Below are positions 25,410-57,888 of a stretch of DNA of 64,000 bases, piece after piece. Under the pieces are notes generated by a model, which did not search any database, had not been told where the DNA came from, and was given only the letters and a program-made list of their open reading frames with translations. This stretch comes from Sedimenticola hydrogenitrophicus (lineage in GTDB: Bacteria > Pseudomonadota > Gammaproteobacteria > Chromatiales > Chromatiaceae), in NCBI RefSeq assembly GCF_025175675.1, contig NZ_JANIOA010000002.1, positions 1 to 64,000 on the forward strand, read 5' to 3'. Position 1 is the first letter of the stretch, and the number at the start of each line of letters is the position of its first letter. Position numbers and translations under genes: made by a program.

Positions 25410-26758
25410 TGCGTTCGATCCATGGCCGACTGTTGCTGGCGGCATCGGTGGTGCTGGCGGCGTTTCTGGGGCTTGGCGCATTGGCACTTGATCGCGCCTT
25501 CCGGGACAGTGCGGAGAGTGCCATGCAAGCCCAGCTGATGGGGCAGATCTACTCCCTGCTCGGGGCCGCCGATACCGATGCGCGGGGACGCATGCGGCTT
25601 CCGGAAGACCTGCCTGATCCGCGCTTTGCCAATCCCGCCTCCGGACTCTATGCCCAGGTCAGGGGCGAGCAGGGGCAGTACCAGTGGCACTCCCCTTCAG
25701 CGGTAGGTCGCCAGTTTCCCATGCGCACCGATATTCCGCCGGGGAGTCCCCTGTTTCAGCTCCTGCCGGCCGATGAACCCCTCTATCTGCTCAGCTACTC
25801 CCTGCTCTGGGAGGACGATAGCGGTGCCGAGATCGGCTATCTGCTGGTGGTGGCCGAGAGCGCAGTCGGTCTGCAGCAGCGCGTTGCCGCCTTCCGCCAG
25901 ACCATACTGCTCTGGTTGGGAGGTGCGGCGCTCATTCTGCTGCTGGTACAGGGCGCCGTGTTGCGCTGGGGACTCAAACCGCTACGGGCGGTGGCGGCCG
26001 ATCTGCGCATGATCGAAAGCGGCGCCCGTGAGCGTCTGGAGGGGGAGTATCCCCGGGAGTTGCGTCGGCTCACCGACGGGATCAACTCCATGATCCGTCA
26101 CAGCGTCGCCAGTCGGGACCGCTACAGAAACCGTTTGGGCGATCTGGCCCACAGCCTCAAGACACCGCTGGCGGTGCTTCAAGGGGCGGCCGAGGGCGAA
26201 GATCCCCGGTTGTTGCGGGAGGCGGTCGCCGAGCAGGTGCCGCGGATGAACGAGATCGTACAGTATCAGCTGAAATCCGCCGCGGCGGCCGGGCGCGGGG
26301 CGGGGCTTGGCCAGAAGACGGCGTTACGTCCCATCCTGGACAGGCTGGTGAGGACCTTGCAGAAGGTCTATCGGGAGAAATCGATCCACTGCCGCTGCGA
26401 GGTGGCGGCGGATCTGCTGTTCCCCGGGGAGTCGGGTGATCTGTTGGAGTGTCTGGGAAATATTTTGGAGAATGCCTTCAAGTATACCCATACAACGGTC
26501 GCCATCTATGTGGAAGCGGACCAGACAGGCGCAAAGGCGGCGGGCGTCCGTCTCTGCGTGGCCGATGACGGACCCGGCATTCCTCCCGAGGTGAGGGAGC
26601 GGGTGCTGCATCGGGGCGAGCGCGTGGACCAGCGGATCCCCGGCCAGGGCATTGGACTCTCCGTGGCCGGTGAGATCGTACAACTGTATGGGGGGGAGCT
26701 CGAAATCGGGGATAGCACCCTGGGCGGGGCCTTGATCGGCATCCGGATGCCGGGATAG
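25409..26758 (+). CDS. sensor histidine kinase, PhoQ-like
   Basis: 449 aa. Two membrane segments (about 10-28 and 168-190) flank a periplasmic domain of about 140 residues. The dimerisation box GDLAHSLKTPLAVLQG has the phospho-accepting His near residue 248. The ATPase part has NILENAFKYT (N box), ADDGPGIP (G1) and GQGIGLSVAG (G2). It pairs with the upstream regulator. An acidic periplasmic patch of the enterobacterial PhoQ type is not obvious, so the ligand is unknown. Confidence 0.92.
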   Translation: MRSIHGRLLLAASVVLAAFLGLGALALDRAFRDSAESAMQAQLMGQIYSLLGAADTDARGRMRLPEDLPDPRFANPASGLYAQVRGEQGQYQWHSPSAVGRQFPMRTDIPPGSPLFQLLPADEPLYLLSYSLLWEDDSGAEIGYLLVVAESAVGLQQRVAAFRQTILLWLGGAALILLLVQGAVLRWGLKPLRAVAADLRMIESGARERLEGEYPRELRRLTDGINSMIRHSVASRDRYRNRLGDLAHSLKTPLAVLQGAAEGEDPRLLREAVAEQVPRMNEIVQYQLKSAAAAGRGAGLGQKTALRPILDRLVRTLQKVYREKSIHCRCEVAADLLFPGESGDLLECLGNILENAFKYTHTTVAIYVEADQTGAKAAGVRLCVADDGPGIPPEVRERVLHRGERVDQRIPGQGIGLSVAGEIVQLYGGELEIGDSTLGGALIGIRMPG

Positions 26759-26894
26759 GGGTTGCCCGCCTTAGTTGATCCAAATTAATAAAAAAAACGC
26801 TAAAGCCATTGAATTATCAGCCGTTATATCGGATTGTACGCAGTGCCGGGCAGCGCCTTCGCTGTCCGTGTCGAGGATAGGGTCAAAAAATTCG

Positions 26895-27815
26895 ATGTTA
26901 TTGTTCAAAAAGCGCGCGCGAACGCCGCTCCAGGTGGGGGTGGGATTTCATTCCGACGGCCTCTCTTTGGTGTCAATAGATCTGTCGGGTAGTGCCTGTC
27001 GTCTGGAGAGCTGTGGCTTCTATCCGGCCGATGCGGGTAGCCCACCCGATCTGGTTCAGGCGATCAAGTCGAATGGTTTGCGTGGCGCGCCGGTGGTGGC
27101 GGTACTGGCACCGTACGCCTATTCCCTGTTCCAGGTGGAAACCCCCGAGGTTGAACATGAAGAGTTGAAAAGCGCCATCCGCTGGCGCATCAAGGATCTG
27201 CTCGATTACCATATCGATGACGCGGTCCTGGATATTTTCGACCTTCCGGTCTCGCAACGCCGCAGCGGCCCACGCATGATGTACGTGGTGGTAGTGAAGC
27301 GAAACCTGATTCAGCAGTATGTCGATCAGCTAGAATCACTCGGACTGGAGATTGCCGCCATCGATATCACCGAACTGGCGTTGCGCAATGTGCTGGCGCT
27401 CGCCGGGGAGCCCGAAAGTCTGCAGGCGCTGCTCTATCTGCCCCCCCATTACGGCATGATCGAGATCGTCCGCGGCGATACGCTCTACCTCAATCGGCGC
27501 ATCGAGATCAGCGGCAACGACCTGGTGGATCAGGGCGGTTTCGGACTTCAGGAACTGCTCGATTCGCTGGTGCTCGAGCTGCAGCGCTCCCTGGACTATC
27601 ACGAAAGCCAGTTTGGCCTCGGGGCGGTACCGACAATCTCGGTGATTGCACCCGAAGCAAGAAAACAGCAGCTGCAGTCCCAGGCGGATCAGAGTCTGGC
27701 GGCAAAAGTTCGACTGCTCGATCTCAGCGCTTCGCTGGAGGGGCTGGATGCGGTCGATCCTGCCGTGCTCTATCGTTGCCTGCCGGCCATCGGTGCGGCC
27801 CTGAGGAGGGACTGA
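26895..27815 (+). CDS. mshI: MSHA biogenesis protein MshI (PilM-like)
   Basis: 306 aa, cytoplasmic, an actin-like PilM/GspL-cytoplasmic fold. Features include VGVGFHSDGLSLVSI at the start, VLAPYAYSLFQVETPEV, and EELKSAIRWRIKDLLDYH. It connects the inner-membrane PilN/O-like pair to the platform. The ATG at 26895 (MLLFKKRARTP) is chosen over the start at 26775 because the domain begins there. First gene of the nine-gene msh cluster, with 3-35 bp gaps or overlaps throughout. Confidence 0.85.
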   Translation: MLLFKKRARTPLQVGVGFHSDGLSLVSIDLSGSACRLESCGFYPADAGSPPDLVQAIKSNGLRGAPVVAVLAPYAYSLFQVETPEVEHEELKSAIRWRIKDLLDYHIDDAVLDIFDLPVSQRRSGPRMMYVVVVKRNLIQQYVDQLESLGLEIAAIDITELALRNVLALAGEPESLQALLYLPPHYGMIEIVRGDTLYLNRRIEISGNDLVDQGGFGLQELLDSLVLELQRSLDYHESQFGLGAVPTISVIAPEARKQQLQSQADQSLAAKVRLLDLSASLEGLDAVDPAVLYRCLPAIGAALRRD

Positions 27816-27818
27816 GCG

Positions 27819-28433
27819 ATGCGCAGCAAGCAGCAGATCAATCTTTATCAGCCGATTTTTCGCAAGCAGCCGGTCGCCTTCTCATTCAACATGTTGCTGA
27901 TACTGGTGATGGTCTCAATCCTCGCCATGGCGAGCCTCCAGGGGCTAGGGGAGTGGCAGAGTGCCCAGCTGGCCGACCGGCTCAGATCCACCCAGGCACA
28001 ACACGATGCGCTGGAGGCGAGCCTGGCGCGCATGGCCGAACGGCTCCCCCGGCCCACGGTGAACAAGATGCTGGAGAGTGAATTGCAGCAACTGATCGAG
28101 AAGCGGAAAAGCGGATTTGCCCTGCTGAATACGCTGAAATCGCGGATTGCCGCCAATCGCGACGGCTTCTCGGGGATCTTCGAGGGGCTGGCGCGACAAT
28201 CCTTTCCTGAGCTCTGGTTCAGCCACATCGCCATTACCGAAGCCGGCAACTTCCTCTCCCTGAAGGGCCAGGTCATGCAACCGGAGTGGTTGCCGCTGCT
28301 GTTGAAAAATCTTGATCAGGAACCGGCCTTCACCGGAAAGCATTTTCAGATTGTCGAGCTGGCGCGTCAGGATGGGCCTGTCCCGGTGTTGAATTTCCGT
28401 TTGCTGACCGACGGCAGGGGTGAGGAACCATGA
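27819..28433 (+). CDS. MSHA biogenesis protein, PilN-like (MshI2)
   Basis: 204 aa with one membrane helix (about residues 22-42, FSFNMLLILVMVSILAMASL) after the basic start MRSKQQINLYQPIFRKQ. A periplasmic coiled coil and ferredoxin-like domain follow. The QINLYQP opening is typical of PilN relatives. GGAGGG lies upstream of the ATG. It overlaps mshJ by four bases. In Shewanella-type clusters the equivalent is often called mshI2. Confidence 0.82.
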   Translation: MRSKQQINLYQPIFRKQPVAFSFNMLLILVMVSILAMASLQGLGEWQSAQLADRLRSTQAQHDALEASLARMAERLPRPTVNKMLESELQQLIEKRKSGFALLNTLKSRIAANRDGFSGIFEGLARQSFPELWFSHIAITEAGNFLSLKGQVMQPEWLPLLLKNLDQEPAFTGKHFQIVELARQDGPVPVLNFRLLTDGRGEEP

Positions 28434-29134
28434 GTGCGCTGTTGGAAAAGGTAAGACGGTTGCCGGAGCGTTTCGATACGCTCAGCGGACGGGAACGGGT
28501 GATGATCCTGGTGCTGGTGGTCGCGGCGCTGGTGGGTGGCTGGTTCAATCTGCTCTGGTACCCACAGAGCATGCAGCAGCGGCAGATCGGTGACAACATC
28601 GACGCGCTTGACGCTCAGATCAAACAGCTGGACGTCCAGTTGGCCGGGTTGGTGAAGCGGGCGGAGCAGGATCCCAATGAGAAGATCCGTCAGGAGCTGG
28701 AGCAGCTGAAGCGGTTTATTGCCGAGATGGAGGGGCAGATCAAGGGGACCACCGCCGCACTGATCGAGCCACGGGAGATGGCACAACTGCTGGAGCGGAT
28801 GCTGCTTAGCAACGAGTCACTGCAGCTGGTGCGGTTAGGCACGTTGAAAACCGAAGCGCTGATGGGTGGCAAGCGGGCAGACTCCGGGCAAGAGAACGCG
28901 CCGGTCTTTGATGATCCGGCCCGGGTGGCGGAAAAGAATGTCTATCGCCATACCTTTATTATCGAATTCGAGGGGGGGTATCTGGCGGTGCTCAAATATC
29001 TCAAGGCGCTGGAAGCGCTGCCGGGACGGTTTTTCTGGGACGGTATCGAGCTGAAGGTGACCGACTATCCGAGCGCCCGGGTCAAGCTGCAGCTGCACAC
29101 CCTGAGTCTGTCAGAGGGGTGGATAGGTGTCTAA
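28430..29134 (+). CDS. mshJ: MSHA biogenesis protein MshJ (PilO-like)
   Basis: 234 aa. One membrane helix (about 25-43, MILVLVVAALVGGWFNLLW), then a coiled coil and a PilO-like periplasmic domain with EGGYLAVLKYLKALEALP. PilO-type proteins pair with PilN-type proteins to form the inner-membrane alignment complex. The start overlaps the upstream stop (ATGA), and the end overlaps mshK by 8 bp. Confidence 0.87.
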   Translation: MSALLEKVRRLPERFDTLSGRERVMILVLVVAALVGGWFNLLWYPQSMQQRQIGDNIDALDAQIKQLDVQLAGLVKRAEQDPNEKIRQELEQLKRFIAEMEGQIKGTTAALIEPREMAQLLERMLLSNESLQLVRLGTLKTEALMGGKRADSGQENAPVFDDPARVAEKNVYRHTFIIEFEGGYLAVLKYLKALEALPGRFFWDGIELKVTDYPSARVKLQLHTLSLSEGWIGV

Positions 29135-29504
29135 ACGGCTCCGATACGCTATCGCCGGTGTACTCCTGCTCGCATTGATGCCGGCGGCGGCGGGCGAGTT
29201 GCGCGATCCCCTGGAGCCCTATGGCTTCCGCCCGGTGAGCCCGGGAGTCTCCGCGGAGACGCGGGGTGCGATGTTCGATGCGAATTCCTTACGGCTTTCA
29301 GGTATATTCGTAGGGCCGGATGGCGCCAGTGCAGTCATCAATGGCCGGCGGCTACGGGTCGGCGATGAGGTTACGGGTGCGCAGTTGGTGCGTATAGAAT
29401 CCCACGCGGTCGAACTCGACCTTGACGGGGATAGATTCAAAATCGAATTGTTGCCGATAACCGTTAAAACACCGGCAAGGCGTTTATCTGGAGGGGGAGA
29501 ATGA
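29127..29504 (+). CDS. mshK: MSHA biogenesis protein MshK (PilP-like)
   Basis: 125 aa. Signal sequence (RYAIAGVLLLALMPAAAG), then a short PilP/GspC-HR-like beta domain: LRLSGIFVGPDGASAVINGRRLRVGDEV. It is predicted to link the inner-membrane complex to the secretin. It starts with GTG inside the 3' end of mshJ and overlaps mshL by 4 bp. Confidence 0.83.
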   Translation: MSKRLRYAIAGVLLLALMPAAAGELRDPLEPYGFRPVSPGVSAETRGAMFDANSLRLSGIFVGPDGASAVINGRRLRVGDEVTGAQLVRIESHAVELDLDGDRFKIELLPITVKTPARRLSGGGE

Positions 29505-31249
29505 GTGTGTCTGGTTGTGCGATCCGATCACCTTTGCTGGTCCTGTCTCTGTTGCTGCTGGGCGGCTGTCAGAGTATGGCTCCACAAGGTGGCGGCACCA
29601 TGGAACAGATCCAGGGCGATCTTAAAACACTACCCGCCGAGGTGAAGCCGGCTTCCCTGCCGCCGCCGGCCGTTACCGCGGCGCTGTTACCGCCGGTGGA
29701 TATGCGGTTCCCCAAAGCAGACAAGCGCGCCCAGGAGGCGCGTTTCGACGTCAATGTCAGTGAAGTGCCGGTGCGTGCCTTCCTGATGGGGTTGGTGGAG
29801 GGTACCCCGTACAACATGGTGGTGCACCCCCAGGTGGAGGGCAGCCTCTCGCTCAGTCTCAAGCAGGTCACCATCCCCGATGTGATGGAGGTGCTCAGGG
29901 ATGTGTACGGTTATGAGTACCAGCGGGTGCGCAGCGGGTTCCAGGTGTTGCCGGCACGCCTGCAGTCACGCATCTTCCAGGTCAATTATCTCAACCTGAA
30001 ACGCAACGGCAGCTCGCAGACCCGGGTCAGCTCGGGGCAGGTCTCGGGTAGCAGTGACGGTGATGGCGGAAGCTCCGGTTCCGACAGCGGCGCCAGTGGC
30101 GTCACCTCGGGCAGCGAGATCAATACCACTTCGGAGGCGGACTTCTGGAGTGAGCTCTCCGGTGCGGTTCAATCCATCGTCGGCAGCGGTGCAGAGCGTT
30201 CGGTGGTGGTCTCTCCCCAGTCCGGTCTGGTGGTGGTGCGCGCCATGCCCCATGAGCTGCGCGAGGTGGAGGCGTTCCTGGAGACCACCAACGAGGCGAT
30301 GCACCGCCAGGTGATCCTGGAGGCCAAGGTGATCGAGGTGGAGCTGAACGACGGCTACCAGGCGGGTATCAACTGGGCCAAAATGATGAGCGTGAATGGC
30401 GACAGCCTGAGCCTCGGCCAGAGTGGCGGCGCGACGCTGTTCAGTAATCCGGGGGGCGCCGGGGTGGAATTGCCGCAGGGCGGCATCGGATCGCCGACCG
30501 AGGACTCGCCGGTCAGCTTCACCAGTTTCTCCGCCTTCGGTGGTCTGTTCGGCGCCGCGCTCAATACCGGCAGTTTTATGGCCTTCATCGAGTTGCTGGA
30601 GTCGCAGGGCAATGTGCAGGTGCTCTCCAGTCCGCGCATCTCCACCCTGAACAACCAGAAGGCGGTGATCAAGGTCGGCAGTGATGAGTTCTTTGTCACC
30701 GACGTCTCCAGTACCACCACCACCGGCACCACCACCACCACCACGCCGGATATCACCCTGACCCCGTTCTTCTCCGGTATCGCCCTGGACGTCACCCCGC
30801 AGATCGACCGGCACGGCCGGGTGACCCTGCATATCCACCCCTCGGTCAGCCAGGTGACCGATCAGCAGAAGGTGATCCAGGTGGGCAACGAGAGCCAGAA
30901 CCTGCCGCTGGCCAAGAGCACGGTGCGCGAGTCGGACAGCCTGGTCTACGCCCAGAGCGGCCAACTGGTGGTGATCGGCGGACTGATGCAGGACACCCGC
31001 AGCGAAGAGGTCGCCTCCACCCCGCTGCTCGGCGATCTGCCGCTGTTCGGTCAGCTGTTCCGGCACACCCGGCAGGCGGCGAAAAAGAGCGAACTGGTGA
31101 TTGTATTGCGCCCCACCGTGGTGGAGAGCGCCGAGACCTGGCGGGCGCGGATATCGGATACGGCGGAGCGTTTCCGCCAACTGGATCGCGGTTTTCACTA
31201 CGGCAGCCAGCCCGAGGTGTTCGGCAATCTCGGTGAAAAGACTGAGTGA
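29501..31249 (+). CDS. mshL: MSHA secretin MshL
   Basis: 582 aa. Lipoprotein signal ending LLLLGGC (Cys near residue 24), then secretin N-domains (residues 80-270) interrupted by a Ser/Gly-rich loop near 168-205, and a C-terminal secretin pore domain with QVLSSPRISTLNNQKAVIKVG and LVVIGGLMQDTRSEE. It forms the outer-membrane channel. GGAGGGGG lies 4 bp before the ATG. A 710-aa minus-strand ORF across this region is a shadow. Confidence 0.94.
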   Translation: MSVSGCAIRSPLLVLSLLLLGGCQSMAPQGGGTMEQIQGDLKTLPAEVKPASLPPPAVTAALLPPVDMRFPKADKRAQEARFDVNVSEVPVRAFLMGLVEGTPYNMVVHPQVEGSLSLSLKQVTIPDVMEVLRDVYGYEYQRVRSGFQVLPARLQSRIFQVNYLNLKRNGSSQTRVSSGQVSGSSDGDGGSSGSDSGASGVTSGSEINTTSEADFWSELSGAVQSIVGSGAERSVVVSPQSGLVVVRAMPHELREVEAFLETTNEAMHRQVILEAKVIEVELNDGYQAGINWAKMMSVNGDSLSLGQSGGATLFSNPGGAGVELPQGGIGSPTEDSPVSFTSFSAFGGLFGAALNTGSFMAFIELLESQGNVQVLSSPRISTLNNQKAVIKVGSDEFFVTDVSSTTTTGTTTTTTPDITLTPFFSGIALDVTPQIDRHGRVTLHIHPSVSQVTDQQKVIQVGNESQNLPLAKSTVRESDSLVYAQSGQLVVIGGLMQDTRSEEVASTPLLGDLPLFGQLFRHTRQAAKKSELVIVLRPTVVESAETWRARISDTAERFRQLDRGFHYGSQPEVFGNLGEKTE

Positions 31250-31252
31250 GTC

Positions 31253-32146
31253 ATGTACGAGAGACACTTTGGACTCAACGCATCCCCCTTCAGTCTGACC
31301 CCGGATACGGATTATTACTTCTCCTATAGCGACCACCAGGAGGCGCTGAATGTCCTGCTGGTGGCCTTGCGCATGGGCGAGGGATTCCTGAAGATTACCG
31401 GTGAAGTCGGCACCGGCAAAACCCTGATCTGTCGCAAACTGCTCAACACCCTGGCGGACGAGGGGATGGTCACCGCCTATATCCCCAACCCCTACCTGAC
31501 ACCCTCGGCGCTGCGCCATTCCCTGGCGGAAGAGCTGGGGGTGGATTACCCGCTGAATATCGGCGGGCATCGGGCCCTGCAGCGGATCTACGGCCGGCTC
31601 ATGGCGTTGAAGGCGGAGGGGCGGCAGGTGGTGCTGTTGCTGGATGAGGCCCAGGCCCTGCCCGAGGAAACCCTGGAGGCGATCCGCCTGCTGACCAATC
31701 TGGAGACGGAGAAGAGCAAGCTGCTCCAGGTGGTGCTGTTCGGTCAGCCGGAACTGGACCGGCACCTGGAACGCCCCTCGGTTCGCCAGCTCAGGCAGCG
31801 CATCACCTTTTCCCACGCCATTCATCCGCTGAACCGTGAGGGGTGCCGTGGCTATGTGCGGCATCGGACCCGGATCGCCGGGCACAACGGCGATACCCTG
31901 TTCAGCGACCAAGCGCTGGAGTGGCTCTGCCGCGGCAGTCGCGGCATACCCCGGCTGATCAATATCCTCGCCCACAAGTCGCTGCTGGCCGCCTATGGCG
32001 AGGGCCGGCCCCAAGTCGATAAGGGCCATGTCAGAAGGGCCATCGCGGATACGGAGGGGGTATCGCGGCAGCGCAACGGCCTGATGCGCCTGTGGCAATC
32101 CCTGTTCAATCGCCAGACACCGGTTGTCGTGCGAGGCCGGGGGTGA
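31253..32146 (+). CDS. mshM: MSHA biogenesis ATPase MshM (ExeA-like)
   Basis: 297-aa AAA-type ATPase. The opening MYERHFGLNASPFSLTPD is typical of the ExeA/MshM family. Walker A is GEVGTGKTL (about residues 47-55) and Walker B VVLLLDEAQALP (about 125-136). It may energise or position secretin assembly. It is 3 bp after mshL and overlaps mshN by four bases (GTGA). Confidence 0.92.
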   Translation: MYERHFGLNASPFSLTPDTDYYFSYSDHQEALNVLLVALRMGEGFLKITGEVGTGKTLICRKLLNTLADEGMVTAYIPNPYLTPSALRHSLAEELGVDYPLNIGGHRALQRIYGRLMALKAEGRQVVLLLDEAQALPEETLEAIRLLTNLETEKSKLLQVVLFGQPELDRHLERPSVRQLRQRITFSHAIHPLNREGCRGYVRHRTRIAGHNGDTLFSDQALEWLCRGSRGIPRLINILAHKSLLAAYGEGRPQVDKGHVRRAIADTEGVSRQRNGLMRLWQSLFNRQTPVVVRGRG

Positions 32147-33444
32147 GCCTGATCAATCAGATGCTGCGCGACCTGGACCAACGCGAAGCCGCGGCGGGTC
32201 CGCGGCAGCACAATACTCCCCAGCCGGTACCGCCAGGGCCGGCCAGCGGCCGCACACGGCGCCTGGCACTCTGGTCCCTGACGCTCATCGCCGCACTGCT
32301 GGCGGTGGTCTATGTGTCACCGCGGATAGCGCCGATGCTGGTCACCCTGACCGCCGAGGATGCCGTCGAGGCCCACGGCCGTCAGGCGGAGAGGGACAGC
32401 GCCAGCGCCGTCATTCCCCAGGCCCTGCCCCCGTTGCCGGCCGAAGCGGCAGGCCGGACCGTCCCGGCGGATCCCGCGCTGGCGCGGAGTGCGGTGGACG
32501 CGGCTCCATCCGTCGCTGATGACCGCGCCGTCGACAGCGATCCCGGGGTGATCGCATCGGTTCTTTCCGCATCGGCCCTTTCCCCATCGGCCCTTTCTGA
32601 GTCGTCGCGCATTCACGAGAACAGCCAAGGAGAGGCGGTCGGCCGGAGTGCACCGCCAGCGATCCAGGCGGGGAAGGCAACCGGGCGGTCCGACGCACCG
32701 GCCCTGGCGGCGGATCTCCCCCTGTCCACGTCGCGGGGCGGGGTGGCGGATCCCGCCGCCGGCGCGTTGCCGGTAAATCGACCGATGCGGGAGGCGCCGC
32801 CTGTTGCCTCGGTAGCCGCGCCGGTCGCAGCTCCGGTGGTCCGGGTACGAAAGGTCGCCGCGAAAGCGGTGCGGGAATCGGCGGCGGATGTCTACGCCAC
32901 GGCCCTGATGCATCTCAACGAGGGGCAGCTGCAGGAGGCGGAGGCGTCGTTGCGCCATGCCCTCGCACTGGACCGCACCCATGGCGAGGCGCGCCGGCTG
33001 CTGGTGATGTTGCTGCTGAACGGTGGGGAGCGGCTCCCGGCCATCGCCCTGCTGGACGAGGGCCTCGATCTGGCCCCCGACGCCACGGCGCTGGCCACTT
33101 TGCGCGGCCGGCTGCTGCTGGAGGATGGCGATCTGTCCCGGGCCATCCGGCTGCTTGAGCGGCAGCGCGCGGAGGTGGGTGACGATATGGAGCTGCTGTC
33201 ACTGTTGGGTTCGGTCTATCAGCAGGCCCGCCGGTTTGCCGCGGCGGTGGGGATTTATCGCCGCATCACCGAACGGCAACCGGACAATGCGCGCGCCCTG
33301 GCCGGTCTGGCCATCGCGCTGGAGGCCACGGGCGCCCCTGGCGAGGCGTTGCCGCTGTATCGCACGGCGCTCGCCCTCGACACGCTGCCCGCGGCGGTCA
33401 ATGAGTATGCCCGGCAGCGGGTCTCGGCATTATCGGTGGAGTGA
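32143..33444 (+). CDS. mshN: MSHA biogenesis protein MshN (TPR)
   Basis: 433 aa. The N-terminus MSLINQMLRDLDQREA is the family signature, followed by one membrane helix (about 44-62), a long low-complexity Ala/Pro/Ser region (about 80-245) and TPR repeats to the end. The GTG at 32143 overlaps the mshM stop and gives the signature N-terminus, unlike the ORF start 51 bp upstream. The Ala/Ser-rich section holds tandem SALS-like units, so length variation between strains is likely. Confidence 0.87.
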   Translation: MSLINQMLRDLDQREAAAGPRQHNTPQPVPPGPASGRTRRLALWSLTLIAALLAVVYVSPRIAPMLVTLTAEDAVEAHGRQAERDSASAVIPQALPPLPAEAAGRTVPADPALARSAVDAAPSVADDRAVDSDPGVIASVLSASALSPSALSESSRIHENSQGEAVGRSAPPAIQAGKATGRSDAPALAADLPLSTSRGGVADPAAGALPVNRPMREAPPVASVAAPVAAPVVRVRKVAAKAVRESAADVYATALMHLNEGQLQEAEASLRHALALDRTHGEARRLLVMLLLNGGERLPAIALLDEGLDLAPDATALATLRGRLLLEDGDLSRAIRLLERQRAEVGDDMELLSLLGSVYQQARRFAAAVGIYRRITERQPDNARALAGLAIALEATGAPGEALPLYRTALALDTLPAAVNEYARQRVSALSVE

Positions 33445-33451
33445 TAACAGT

Positions 33452-35194
33452 ATGGTTGAAGTGGTGGAAACAAATCCGACGGAGGTGATACGCAGCCGCA
33501 AGCGCATCCGTATCGGCGATCTGCTGGTCGACAACAAGGTGATCTCGGAAGGTCAGCTGCAGGCCGCGCTGGCCGAGCAGAAGCGCTCGGGACACAAGCT
33601 CGGCTATACCCTGATCGAGCTCGGTTTTATCGATGAACAGCGGCTGCTCGACTTCCTTTCGCAACAGCTGCAGATCCCCTACATCGATCTGACCTCCTTT
33701 CCGCTGCAGCCGGAGGTGGTGAAAAACGTCCCGGAGACCATGGCGCGGCGCTATCGGGTGATTGCGCTCGAACTCGGTGACAAGGATGTGCTGGTGGGCA
33801 TGGCCGATCCCACCGACCTGTTTGCCTACGACGAACTGGGACACCACCTGAAGAAGCGGGTGCGCCAGGCGGTGGTCCGGGAGGGAGATCTGCTGGAGGC
33901 GCTGGACCGCATGTACCGGCGGTCGGATGAGTTGACCTCGCTGGCCGGTGAACTGCATGAGGACCTGACCCAGGGGGATTTCGATCTCGGCCAGCTGATG
34001 CAGACGGTGGAGGCGGGGGACGCGCCGGTGATCCGCCTGTTGCAGACGCTGTTCGAGGATGCCCTGCAGGCCAAGGCCTCGGATATCCATATCGAACCGG
34101 ACGAGGAGGTGTTGCGAATCCGCCAACGGGTCGACGGGGTGCTGCACGAGCAGGTGATGAATGAACGGCGAATCGCGCCGGCGCTGGTGCAGCGGTTGAA
34201 GCTGCTGGCCAGCCTGGATATTTCGGAGAAGCGCCTGCCCCAGGATGGGCGTTTCCAGATCAAGGTGAAGCGTCACTCCATCGATGTCCGGCTCTCCACC
34301 ATGCCGGTGCAGCATGGCGAGGCGGTGGTGATGCGGCTGCTGGATCAGAGCTCGGGCATCCTCAGCCTGGACGATCTGGGGTTCGAGCCGGAGCTGTTGC
34401 GGCGACTGCGGGCGCTGATCAGAAAGCCCCACGGCATGGTGCTGGTCACCGGCCCGACCGGCAGCGGCAAGACCACCACCCTCTACTCCGCCCTGAATGA
34501 ACTGAACTCCGCCGAGAAGAAGATCATCACGGTGGAGGACCCGGTCGAGTACCGGTTGCCGCGGATCAATCAGGTCCAGGTGCACGAGCAGATCGGGCTC
34601 AGTTTCGCTCGGGTACTGCGCACCGCCATGCGTCAGGACCCCGATATCCTGCTGGTGGGGGAGATGCGCGACCTGGAGACGGCGCAGATCGGCCTGCGCG
34701 CGGCGATCACCGGCCACTTCGTCCTCTCCACGGTCCACACCAACAGCGCCATCGGTACCGTCGCCCGCCTGCTGGACATGGGCGCGCCGGGCTATCTGAT
34801 GGCCTCGTCGCTGCTGGCGATCGTGGCGCAACGGCTGGTCAGGCGGGTCTGCGGCCATTGTGCGGTACCTTATGAGCCGGATCAGATCGAACTGGCCTGG
34901 CTGGAAGGGGTGCGCCATAGTTATGATCTGAGTGGCCTGCGCCGTGGCCGGGGCTGCAATCGTTGCGGTAACACCGGCTATCAGGGACGGGTCGGGGTCT
35001 ATGAACTGCTGGAACTCAATGGCGAGATGGCCTCGGCCTTGCGGCGTGACGACCATGAGGCCTTCGCCCGCATTGCCCTGGCCAGCGAGCGCTTCGAACC
35101 GCTCTGGCAATCGGTGTTGCGTTTTGCCTCCCAGGGTGTCACCACGCTGAGCGAGGCGATTCGGATCTCGGGCGATGTGGAGGCCACCGGGTGA
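33452..35194 (+). CDS. mshE: MSHA pilus extension ATPase MshE
   Basis: 580-aa PilB/GspE-family ATPase. The N-terminal MshEN domain carries the c-di-GMP signature, IGDLLVDNKVISEGQLQAAL then QKRSGHKLG (residues 21-49). Walker A GPTGSGKTTTLY is near 333-344, the Asp and His boxes follow, and a zinc tetracysteine (CGHC...CNRCG) lies near 467-510. It drives pilus assembly and should respond to c-di-GMP. The ATG at 33452 is 7 bp after mshN and matches the MshEN start. Confidence 0.94.
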   Translation: MVEVVETNPTEVIRSRKRIRIGDLLVDNKVISEGQLQAALAEQKRSGHKLGYTLIELGFIDEQRLLDFLSQQLQIPYIDLTSFPLQPEVVKNVPETMARRYRVIALELGDKDVLVGMADPTDLFAYDELGHHLKKRVRQAVVREGDLLEALDRMYRRSDELTSLAGELHEDLTQGDFDLGQLMQTVEAGDAPVIRLLQTLFEDALQAKASDIHIEPDEEVLRIRQRVDGVLHEQVMNERRIAPALVQRLKLLASLDISEKRLPQDGRFQIKVKRHSIDVRLSTMPVQHGEAVVMRLLDQSSGILSLDDLGFEPELLRRLRALIRKPHGMVLVTGPTGSGKTTTLYSALNELNSAEKKIITVEDPVEYRLPRINQVQVHEQIGLSFARVLRTAMRQDPDILLVGEMRDLETAQIGLRAAITGHFVLSTVHTNSAIGTVARLLDMGAPGYLMASSLLAIVAQRLVRRVCGHCAVPYEPDQIELAWLEGVRHSYDLSGLRRGRGCNRCGNTGYQGRVGVYELLELNGEMASALRRDDHEAFARIALASERFEPLWQSVLRFASQGVTTLSEAIRISGDVEATG

Positions 35195-35228
35195 AACGGT
35201 TAGTGAGCGATCGGGCGGGTGGTGACTG

Positions 35229-36452
35229 ATGCGGGCATATCAATACAAGGCGCGAAACCGCCGCGGTGAGGCATTGACCGGTACCCTGGAGGCCGAGACC
35301 CCGGAGGCGGTCGCCGAGCAGTTGTTTCGTTCCAGGCTGACCCCCATTGACATCATGCCGGTTGAGCGGCGTGGCACCAGCAAGGAGATCAAACCGGCCT
35401 GGTTCCAGCAAGGTGTCAAGCTGGATGAACTGGTGCTGCTGTGTCGTCAGCTCTATACCCTGCAGAAGGCCGGCGTGCCGATCTTGCGCGGCTTCAGCAG
35501 CCTGATCGAGACCACCCGCAATCCGACCCTGGCCGCCGCCCTGAAAGGCATTGTGGATGATATCCAGTCAGGGCGCGAACTGCACATGGCGCTGGCCCGT
35601 TACCCGGCCATTTTCTCGCCGCTGTTCATCAGCATGATCAAGGTGGGTGAAAATACCGGCCGCCTGGATGACACCTTCCTGCAGCTGGCGGGTTATCTGG
35701 AGCTGGAGAAGGAGACCCGCAATCGCATCAAGAGCGCCACCCGCTACCCGTTGACGGTGCTGCTGGCGATCGTCATCGCCATGGTGATTATCAATATCTG
35801 GGTGATCCCGGCCTTCGCCGACGCCTTTGCCCGCTTCGATGCCGAACTGCCCCTGGCGACCCGGATCCTGCTGGGCATCTCCCACTTCACCCTCAACTGG
35901 TGGCCCCACTTGCTGGCGGGGACCATTGCGCTGTTACTGGCCCTGGGTGCCTGGATTCGCAGCGAGGAGGGGGGCTATATCTGGGCGCGCGCCCTGCTGC
36001 GGATACCGCTGGTCGGGTACATACTCAAGAAGGCCATACTGGGCCGCTTCTGCCGTTCCCTGGCCCTGGCCATGCGCTCCGGTGTCCCCCTGGTGCAGGC
36101 CCTCTCGGTCATATCCGGGGTGGTCAACAATGCCTTTATCAGCGAGCGCGTCCTCAGTATGCGGGACGGCATCGAGAGTGGTGACAGCATCGCCCGCACC
36201 GCCGCGGCCACCGGCATGTTCACCCCCATGGTGTTGCAGATGATCGCCATCGGCGAAGAGTCCGGCTCGGTGGATGACCTGCTACTGGAGACCGCCGAGC
36301 ATTATGAGCGGGAGGTGAAATACGACCTGGCCCGGCTCTCGGATGCGATCGAGCCGGTGATCATCGTCATCATCGGCGCCATGGTCCTGGTGCTGGCACT
36401 GGGCGTGTTTCTGCCGATGTGGGATCTCTCCTCGGCGGTGAACAAGCACTAG
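35229..36452 (+). CDS. mshG: MSHA platform protein MshG (GspF/PilC-like)
   Basis: 407 aa, two T2SS-F domains with membrane segments near 175-195, 222-242 and 375-397. MRAYQYKARNRRGEALTGTLE is the family start; VLLCRQLYTLQKAGVPILRGF and RFCRSLALAMRSGVPLVQAL are the duplicated motifs. It forms the inner-membrane platform. It is the last msh gene here: the pilin genes (mshB, A, C, D and others) do not follow. Its TAG stop lies inside the terminal CTAG of a palindromic element. Confidence 0.93.
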   Translation: MRAYQYKARNRRGEALTGTLEAETPEAVAEQLFRSRLTPIDIMPVERRGTSKEIKPAWFQQGVKLDELVLLCRQLYTLQKAGVPILRGFSSLIETTRNPTLAAALKGIVDDIQSGRELHMALARYPAIFSPLFISMIKVGENTGRLDDTFLQLAGYLELEKETRNRIKSATRYPLTVLLAIVIAMVIINIWVIPAFADAFARFDAELPLATRILLGISHFTLNWWPHLLAGTIALLLALGAWIRSEEGGYIWARALLRIPLVGYILKKAILGRFCRSLALAMRSGVPLVQALSVISGVVNNAFISERVLSMRDGIESGDSIARTAAATGMFTPMVLQMIAIGEESGSVDDLLLETAEHYEREVKYDLARLSDAIEPVIIVIIGAMVLVLALGVFLPMWDLSSAVNKH

Positions 36453-36616
36453 GAGTCTGTCGGGTTTATCCGTTTGAAGCGAAAATCACTGGGGGCGAAT
36501 CAAATCAGTTTATCGAACGAGGAGAATAGTGGGCCTATTTAACGAGTTCGATAAGCTGAGTGGATCGCCATCCAGGGATTTGCAGCCAAACAGCGTTAAA
36601 TCCGGCAGGCTCCTAG
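36449..36616. mobile_element. MITE-like palindromic element between convergent genes
   Basis: 168 bp. Terminal arms TAGGAGTCTGTCGGGTTTAT (from 36450) and the near inverse CGGCAGGCTCCTA (36603-36615), with inner arms containing TCAGTTTATCGAAC / GTTCGATAAGCTGA. The element is palindromic almost throughout. Ends are CTAG, consistent with TA-flanked terminal inverted repeats of the Tc1/IS630 type. It has no ORF and is likely non-autonomous. It contributes the TAG stop codons of both mshG and the DUF2333 gene and may act as a bidirectional terminator. Confidence 0.7.
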
Positions 36617-37677
36617 CCCTCGCTCAACAGGTTGCGCAGGTCGATCACGGCGGCATTGGCCCGCGAGATGTAGGAGGTCATGACCAGCGAGTAGTTGGTG
36701 ACCAGACCGAAACCGCCGCCGTTGAGCACCATCGGACTCATCACCGATTGCTGGCTCGCCTCCAGCTCGCGGATGATCTGACGCAGGCTCACCAGGGCGT
36801 TCTTCTTCACCAGGATGTCGCGGAAATCCAGCTCCACGGCGCGCAGAAAATGGACCAGCGCCCAGGTCGATCCCCGCGCCTCGTAAAACACGTCGTCGAT
36901 CTCCAGCCAGGGCGTGCGCACACCAATCCGGGCCGGCGTCTGGGTGGATTGGGCGGCATTCGGATCACCGGCCAGGTCGGTGTTGAGCCGCTCCTGTCCG
37001 ACGCTGGCGCTGAGGCGCTGGGATAGACTGCCGAGACGCTTCTCCACCACCGAGAGCCATACCCTCAGGTTGTCGGCGCGGGCGTAGAACTGGGTGTTCT
37101 GGGCGTCGTTTTTCGCCAGTTCCGAGAGGTAGCGGCGCAGCGCCTTCAGGCCTTCACGGTACTCACCTTCGGTTGAGGGGAGTATCCAGGAGTCGTTACT
37201 GAAGTTGAACTGCGGTTCGGCGATGGACAGGTCCAGGTTTTCCGTGGACTGTGACTGGGAGCGGCTGATGTCGTTGCGCAGGACACGGGCCAGGTCACGT
37301 GACTGCACCAGGGCGCCGAACTCCCAGTTGGGGATGTTGTCCAGTAGCACGCTGGGCGGCATGACATCGTTGCTCAGGTAGCCGCCCGGTTTATCCAGAA
37401 GGGTCTCCATTACCCGAATCAGCGCCGCCGTGGTATGTGCCCCGGTGACCCGCTCCGATCCGCTCAGCTCCCAGCGGGTGTTCTCCAGGATGTCGAAGCT
37501 CTCCGGCTCCTGGCTCCAGTAGATGCTGAATGCGTAGAGGATAATCAGCAACGTGACGGTCGCCAGTCCACTGGACCAGAGCCAGCCTTTTTCGCGCATA
37601 GTCCGCGGATGGTATAGCAGCGTAATGCGACGCACCAGGTCGCCCGATCTTGATCCCAGGGAGCTGAAAAAATTCAT
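36613..37677 (-). CDS. DUF2333 family protein
   Basis: 354 aa. One N-terminal membrane helix (about 31-50, LWSSGLATVTLLIILYAFSI), then a long periplasmic helical domain. MPPSVLLDNIPNWEFGALVQ and RDLARVLRNDISRSQSQS are typical of the DUF2333 family. The role is unknown. The ATG at 37677 (MNFFSSLGSR) is chosen; a GTG directly before it is possible, and there is no strong ribosome site. Divergent from gor; its TAG stop is in the palindromic element shared with mshG. Confidence 0.8.
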   Translation of the reverse strand: MNFFSSLGSRSGDLVRRITLLYHPRTMREKGWLWSSGLATVTLLIILYAFSIYWSQEPESFDILENTRWELSGSERVTGAHTTAALIRVMETLLDKPGGYLSNDVMPPSVLLDNIPNWEFGALVQSRDLARVLRNDISRSQSQSTENLDLSIAEPQFNFSNDSWILPSTEGEYREGLKALRRYLSELAKNDAQNTQFYARADNLRVWLSVVEKRLGSLSQRLSASVGQERLNTDLAGDPNAAQSTQTPARIGVRTPWLEIDDVFYEARGSTWALVHFLRAVELDFRDILVKKNALVSLRQIIRELEASQQSVMSPMVLNGGGFGLVTNYSLVMTSYISRANAAVIDLRNLLSEG

Positions 37678-57875: not shown

Positions 57876-57888
57876 GACAGACTCCTAG
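57876..57888. repeat. orphan end of the 36449 palindromic element
   Basis: GACAGACTCCTAG is the exact inverse complement of the first 13 bases of the element at 36449. It lies four bases after the purA stop. Nothing else of the element is recognisable here, so it is a relic or chance match of low probability. Confidence 0.45.

Follow-up and report, generated by a model that had tools for sequence, protein, structure and literature searches.

Within the 64,000-nucleotide stretch of a Sedimenticola hydrogenitrophicus contig analysed here (the window), two convergent genes end inside one and the same palindrome. What is this sequence, how was it brought there, and did it create the gene ends that it contains? 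The genes are an mshG-like gene of the type II secretion F family (T2SSF PF00482; 35229-36452, plus strand) and a DUF2333 gene (PF10095; 36613-37680, minus strand). The sequence between them, 36449-36616, is a long imperfect palindrome of 168 bp with CTAG at both ends. The left CTAG (36449-36452) contains the TAG stop of mshG (36450-36452) and the right CTAG (36613-36616) the TAG stop of the DUF2333 gene (36613-36615, minus strand), exactly as a first-pass annotation of this DNA had described. We consider it likely that the sequence is a non-autonomous transposon (MITE) that inserts into CTAG and duplicates it, would be mobilised in trans by IS1182-family transposases via a common terminal repeat of ~16-20 bp, CTAG[G/C]AGYCTGTCGGRYTT, and carries a core that is a selected hairpin, probably of RNA.

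The element folds end to end as single-stranded DNA with a minimum free energy of −44.3 kcal/mol; shuffled sequences average −21.4 (z = −7.2, 0/200 shuffles). Pairing is near-perfect in the outer 20 bp, and the interior is paired with three internal loops and an apex of a few bases (36530-36534). The outer part corresponds to the terminal inverted repeats, CTAGGAGTCTGTCGGGTTTA on the left (36449-36468, plus strand) and CTAGGAGCCTGCCGGATTTA on the right (36597-36616, minus strand); the same end occurs on insertion sequences (ISs) of the IS1182 family and on other copies. The interior is described here on the plus strand, the strand whose stems keep G-U pairs and the putative RNA strand. Internal loop 1 consists of GAAGCGA (36476-36482; GNAGCGA in the family), whose unpaired columns are 88-100% conserved in alignment A3, and GCAG on the 3' side (36582-36585; 97% conserved in A3). 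The two sides of internal loop 2 lie approximately at 36496-36501 and 36562-36567, where the family has a CGAGNC motif and a GGNCCG-type motif, respectively (alignment A1). Internal loop 3 is formed by GAGGAG (36519-36524; GAGGCG in the family) and TAACGA (36540-36545) and is not universal, as some betaproteobacterial copies have paired bases instead. It is closed by the apical stem-loop AATAG-TGGGC-CTATT (36525-36539). The element has no coding region of its own and no transposase, and a search of 36300-36800 gave no sigma-70-like promoter. The 13-bp identical end that had been noted after purA is present at 57876-57888 on the minus strand (CTAGGAGTCTGTC). This solitary end is probably a deletion stub; the genus has many such stubs, of 23-90 bp. 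In L013, a similar half-end, GTGACAGACGCCTAG, is located to the left of an element copy.

The proposal that this is a MITE-like mobile element, with further copies and with empty sites in relatives, was borne out. Blast returned 47 pieces of the element in the window's genome, four of them with at least 95% identity over the full length, and a covariance model placed about 14 full-length copies there, plus partial copies and stubs. Among the sampled relatives, 15/55 gave blast matches; a search of PLSDB for plasmid carriage gave none. For the empty sites, the flanks of 12 copies were joined and searched in six congeners. Three clean empty sites were found in the sister species G006 (GCAGTC-CTAG-TCTTTT, GAGCC-CTAG-TCCTG, and CCGC-CTAG-CGCAC), and at each of them the two CTAGs of the filled site are represented by only one. 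For the window element, the CTAG duplication is read from these empty sites of other copies. The family thus combines terminal inverted repeats, a length below ~200-400 bp, the lack of a transposase, multiple copies, filled and empty sites, and a target duplication. Ends common to an autonomous IS complete the picture of a MITE and are provided by IS1182-family ISs, none of which was found in the window's genome.

Copies are also lost or hidden. At L310:1601-1623 and L287:1600-1635, congeners have stubs of 23 and 36 bp, consisting of the terminal repeats only, at sites that are occupied by a complete element in the window's genome; deletion of the palindrome is therefore frequent. Many draft contigs end inside the element (L211, L158, L147, L150, L166, L146, and L207), which leads to recurrent assembly gaps and to an undercount in drafts.

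Which transposase could move the element? A pattern scan of GTDB genomes for the element end gave CTAG-flanked ISs of about 1.5-1.6 kb with the same end (L194, L184, and L191). The transposase of L194 has DUF772 and DDE domains and belongs to the IS1182 family (NF033551, 291 bits vs a cut-off of 270), and so does that of L327, a fragment that scores 266 bits against the same model and cut-off. When the class was searched with the L184 transposase, six genomes matched, and four of the six (G169, G182, G124, and G302) contain complete IS1182-type elements with CTAG[GC]AG... ends; in G169, three identical IS copies lie at different CTAG sites. The ISs of L194, L327, G182, G124, G019, G697, and G705 have the form CTAG[GC]AGYCTGTCGG...CTAG. 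The last three genomes are from the window's family: G697 and G705 contain CTAGCAG-ended ISs, and G019 contains the hairpin together with an IS1182 element, the two having one terminal repeat variant in common, CTAGGAGTCTGTCGG[AG]TTTAG. Thus, by its ends, the element appears to be moved in trans by IS1182-family transposases.

A cognate IS1182 transposase with the element ends was found neither in the window's genome nor in several copy-rich genomes, and drafts may miss IS copies; the copies here are therefore either orphaned or their IS lies in an assembly gap. Two other groups of transposases were considered as partners and rejected because their ends do not match, namely the PF01609 transposases of G000, G006, and G027 and the PF05598 transposases of 12 copy-rich genomes. 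The autonomous ISs were also rejected as direct parents of the core, as it was not found in ISs with the same ends. One CTAG, at L350:2006-2009, is common to a hairpin-type end and to an end of the IS type, as if one element had inserted at the target duplication of the other. In Methylobacter, L142:6130-6324 is a CTAG-ended element of 195 bp with ends CTGTCGGATAGGT/CTGTCGGACTTAT like those of the L184 IS; it was not reported by the hairpin model and is a candidate for an ordinary IS-deletion MITE.

We then compared the two gene ends at the window site with those of relatives. In five congeners, mshG and the DUF2333 gene are convergent and the element is absent. MshG ends there with ...VNKR*, ...VHKN*, or ...VHN*, the end point being the same within one residue, and DUF2333 ends with ...SEG* at the same codon; the stops are TGA, TAA, or TAG. 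As the C-termini match in relatives without the element, neither protein was rewritten by it, and the earlier view that the insertion had rewritten two gene ends does not hold; such matching ends are what the annotation itself had named as counting against it. The three empty sites agree: at all of them, the TAG of the adjacent gene lies within the CTAG when the site is filled, and the same CTAG is already present when it is empty. Hence, the CTAGs belong to the convergent gene ends, and the element did not create those ends. The ancestral target at the window site was most likely one CTAG common to two convergent stops, as judged from the flanks only, because this copy has no clean empty site. 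In G006, whose DUF2333 is 97% identical to that of the window, the site holds a different CTAG-ended element end and a deletion of ~9.6 kb, and in other relatives the spacers have diverged.

The G006 site (C21, L030:1-95) was compared with 26740-36616 of the window. The ~9.6-kb msh region is absent there, and a sensor-kinase gene is joined to the DUF2333 gene; where the two meet, a CTAG-ended remnant of an element abuts the same DUF2333 stop. The left part of C21 was considered as an IS copy, which was rejected; it is the end of the sensor-kinase gene, which became fused to this remnant when the msh region was lost. The kinase also adjoins DUF2333 in G003.

The position of the stop codons is not peculiar to this site. 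In a tally of 100 copies from many genomes, the TAG lies exactly in the terminal CTAG at 43/100 gene 3' ends that face a copy, and the stop lies further inside the element at 6. A count made independently of annotated genes took TAG-terminated frames with at least 120 open codons: 45 of them stop in a terminal CTAG, and the other two frames together account for 20. Four copies, that of the window included, carry two stops. Landing in a CTAG stop is thus a property of the element family. CTAG is depleted in the window (18 observed vs 118 expected) and can hold a TAG stop. As the sequence is rare yet able to contain this stop, surviving insertions would be found at gene ends, with the protein intact.

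Two readings of the first-pass annotation can be weighed against these data. One is that the element supplies the stops, has shortened or lengthened two proteins, and terminates transcription in both directions. Its termini do contain both TAG stops, and polymerase could be impeded by a long hairpin between convergent genes; against this, relatives that lack the element have unchanged C-termini, the stop-bearing CTAGs pre-exist at the empty sites, and a search of both strands of the element for a G+C-rich hairpin followed by a T run gave none, so that a terminator has no sequence support. This reading is very improbable. The other is that of an IS630/Tc1-type MITE with a TA target. TA is contained in CTAG, and for an element with the outermost bases G...C, a duplication of TA could formally not be told apart from one of CTAG. 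Nevertheless, the TA is preceded by C and followed by G in nearly every copy and in the three clean empty sites, and the search for a transposase with the same ends, for which the IS630 family had been suggested, led to complete ISs that encode IS1182-family transposases. With CTAG present once in empty and twice in filled sites, an IS630/Tc1-type insertion is hardly credible.

In the reading that we prefer, an IS1182-mobilised MITE, the terminal repeats account for about 20 bp on each side, and the remaining core requires its own explanation. The length stays within 166-170 nt in the elements that were aligned, which come from Gamma-, Beta-, and Zetaproteobacteria and from Desulfobacterota. 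For 28 diverse sequences, RNAalifold gave one long hairpin with internal loops and double changes in 47/65 pairs. In the model-fitted alignment (66 elements and one reverse-strand row), 95.5% of the cells are paired and 51/65 pairs have double changes, with a covariation of 0.574 vs 0.18 when shuffled and ≤0.13 when slid; the aligned sequences are related, so these counts are not independent events. The MAFFT alignment, which is not structure-fitted, gave similar values (92.6% of cells paired; covariation 0.579 vs 0.207 shuffled and ≤0.169 slid). The bases of the internal loops are conserved, e.g., GNAGCGA opposite GCAG. Common descent or recent horizontal spread may be behind part of the conservation in the interior. 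No Rfam family exceeded its gathering threshold for the element, and only sub-threshold chance matches were obtained. Covarying stems, conserved loops, and strand-specific wobble pairs, as would be looked for in a structured RNA, are all found. Judged from these alignments, the core of ~125 nt between the repeats is kept as one specific hairpin in many bacterial classes.

The two strands of this hairpin are not equivalent. On the window element, covariance model R1 scores 151.7 bits on the plus strand (all 167 positions) against 58.7 bits on the minus strand, and the RNA fold is −89.0 kcal/mol on the plus strand vs −67.0 on the minus strand. When elements were oriented by the loop-1 motif, the forward strand was more stable as RNA than its complement in 61/65; of the four exceptions, three were traced to a wrong orientation, and the fourth does not belong to the family. 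The interior stems of alignment A3 contain 279 G-U cells vs 29 A-C cells, and per sequence G-U exceeds A-C in 63, with ties in three and the reverse in none. In the terminal-repeat stem, the numbers are 47 and 21 (Fisher p = 1.6e-5 against the interior). Recent mutations, counted as singleton changes among near-identical copies, converted Watson-Crick pairs to G-U seven times and to A-C eight times, a ratio that differs from the long-term one (p = 5e-5). Strand-biased mutation is therefore unsupported as the cause of the G-U excess, although these numbers are small (7 vs 8). As G-U pairs are kept on one strand while recent mutations are symmetric, the fold of one strand is under selection, and most simply, the selected strand would be a transcribed RNA. 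Relative to the gene that ends in the CTAG, copies are found equally in sense and antisense (22:22). A role of the hairpin as a sense 3'UTR of the neighbouring upstream gene is thus not supported. The putative RNA likely has a role in the element's own spread or in its tolerance, for example by transcript protection, RNase III-type processing, or protein binding.

The same fold could act as single-stranded DNA that is recognised in transposition or replication, like integron attC or the hairpins of IS200/IS605 and REPIN. Retention of G-U would fit, since G-T pairs are tolerated in DNA hairpins too; the element is mobile, and the even sense and antisense numbers indicate that host mRNA is not the context in which selection acts. 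We nevertheless regard single-stranded DNA as rather unlikely: the CTAG duplication and the common ends point to a DDE transposase that acts on double-stranded ends, and the strand bias is weaker in the terminal repeats, where the transposase binds (47:21 vs 279:29). It is also conceivable that nothing is selected and that an ordinary IS-derived MITE keeps its palindrome by arm copying, i.e., template switching or gene conversion. Long-hairpin MITEs are common (ERIC, YPAL, Correia; PMC2229807), and the 23-90 bp deletion stubs show strong palindrome instability. Arm copying, however, would remove mismatches symmetrically, yet the loop bases are conserved, and one strand retains wobble pairs at a ratio of about 10:1 although new mutations show no such asymmetry. 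In addition, the autonomous ISs that share these ends do not contain the core. An unselected structure is quite improbable.

Model R1 matched 66/274 sampled genomes of the class and 51/398 sampled genomes of the phylum, and in many of these the match numbers per genome are to be read as "at least". On Nitrosomonas contig L252, two copies differ in their ends, which are CTGTCCGAGAATAG in the first and CTGTCGGACTTAAG in the second; the IS-like locus L350, from the window's family, has CTGTCCGAGAATAG ends as well. As the terminal repeats vary while the core stays, we infer that the core can pair with different IS1182 subgroups. It is possible, and we propose it only tentatively, that the core represents a family of selfish structured RNAs. 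Such a family would gain IS1182 terminal repeats, hitch-hike on whichever subgroup is present, and spread or be tolerated with the help of its own RNA.

Several known systems resemble the element in part. Complete members of the IS1182 family (IS1272 and relatives) share the ends and the CTAG flanks; the ISs do not have the hairpin core, and the element does not have the transposase. Some members of the family are reported to target palindromes, and IS1272 to replace target stem-loops (PMC5678879). The element duplicates its CTAG target, whereas IS1272 is reported to leave no duplication. The Yersinia palindromic sequence (YPAL / RU-2, ~168 bp) is nearly identical in length, multicopy, and likewise a stable RNA hairpin with empty and filled sites, and effects on upstream transcripts have been proposed for it (PMC2229807, PMC2759123). 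The published 168-nt YPAL sequence has no similarity to the consensus of the present family (score 14 vs a shuffled mean of 15), and unlike the element, YPAL has no TA at its termini, has duplications of 3-26 bp (PMC2229807), and is reported from Yersinia and Erwinia. ERIC (IRU / RU-1) is also an imperfect palindromic MITE (~127 bp) of several genera with proposed RNA-level effects (PMC2229807) but differs in length, TA ends, and sequence, and it is reported from enterobacteria and Vibrio, whereas the present family spans classes and phyla. The Coxiella MITEs QMITE1 and QMITE2 give structured small RNAs (PMC5896051), and QMITE2 is similar in size (150-190 bp) and mostly located in 3'UTRs. Their direct repeats are short or variable and not CTAG, no relationship to IS1182 is described, and no orthologues of QMITE1 were found in other genomes (PMC5896051). 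RUP is a small palindromic element that shares its ends with a resident IS, IS630-Spn1 (PMC2229807), but it has a TA target, an IS630 partner, and a single host species. The Correia element resembles ours in principle (PMC2229807). We found no earlier description of the family in openly available full text; an earlier description in subscription literature is possible. Relative to the available literature, the cross-phylum hairpin core, the apparent selection of one strand, and the targeting of stop-codon CTAGs via IS1182 ends would be new.

The family is present in about a quarter of the sampled genomes of the window's class, yet it is absent from Rfam, and the model now allows annotators to flag copies at gene ends and at contig breaks. 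Benign insertion also finds a simple explanation: the element is specific for CTAG, a sequence that these genomes seldom contain but that can accommodate a stop codon. It is common to regard bacterial MITEs as IS debris; the core of this family has covarying stems and retains G·U pairs on one strand. Hence, a long-standing question, namely whether MITE hairpins have an RNA function under selection, becomes testable.
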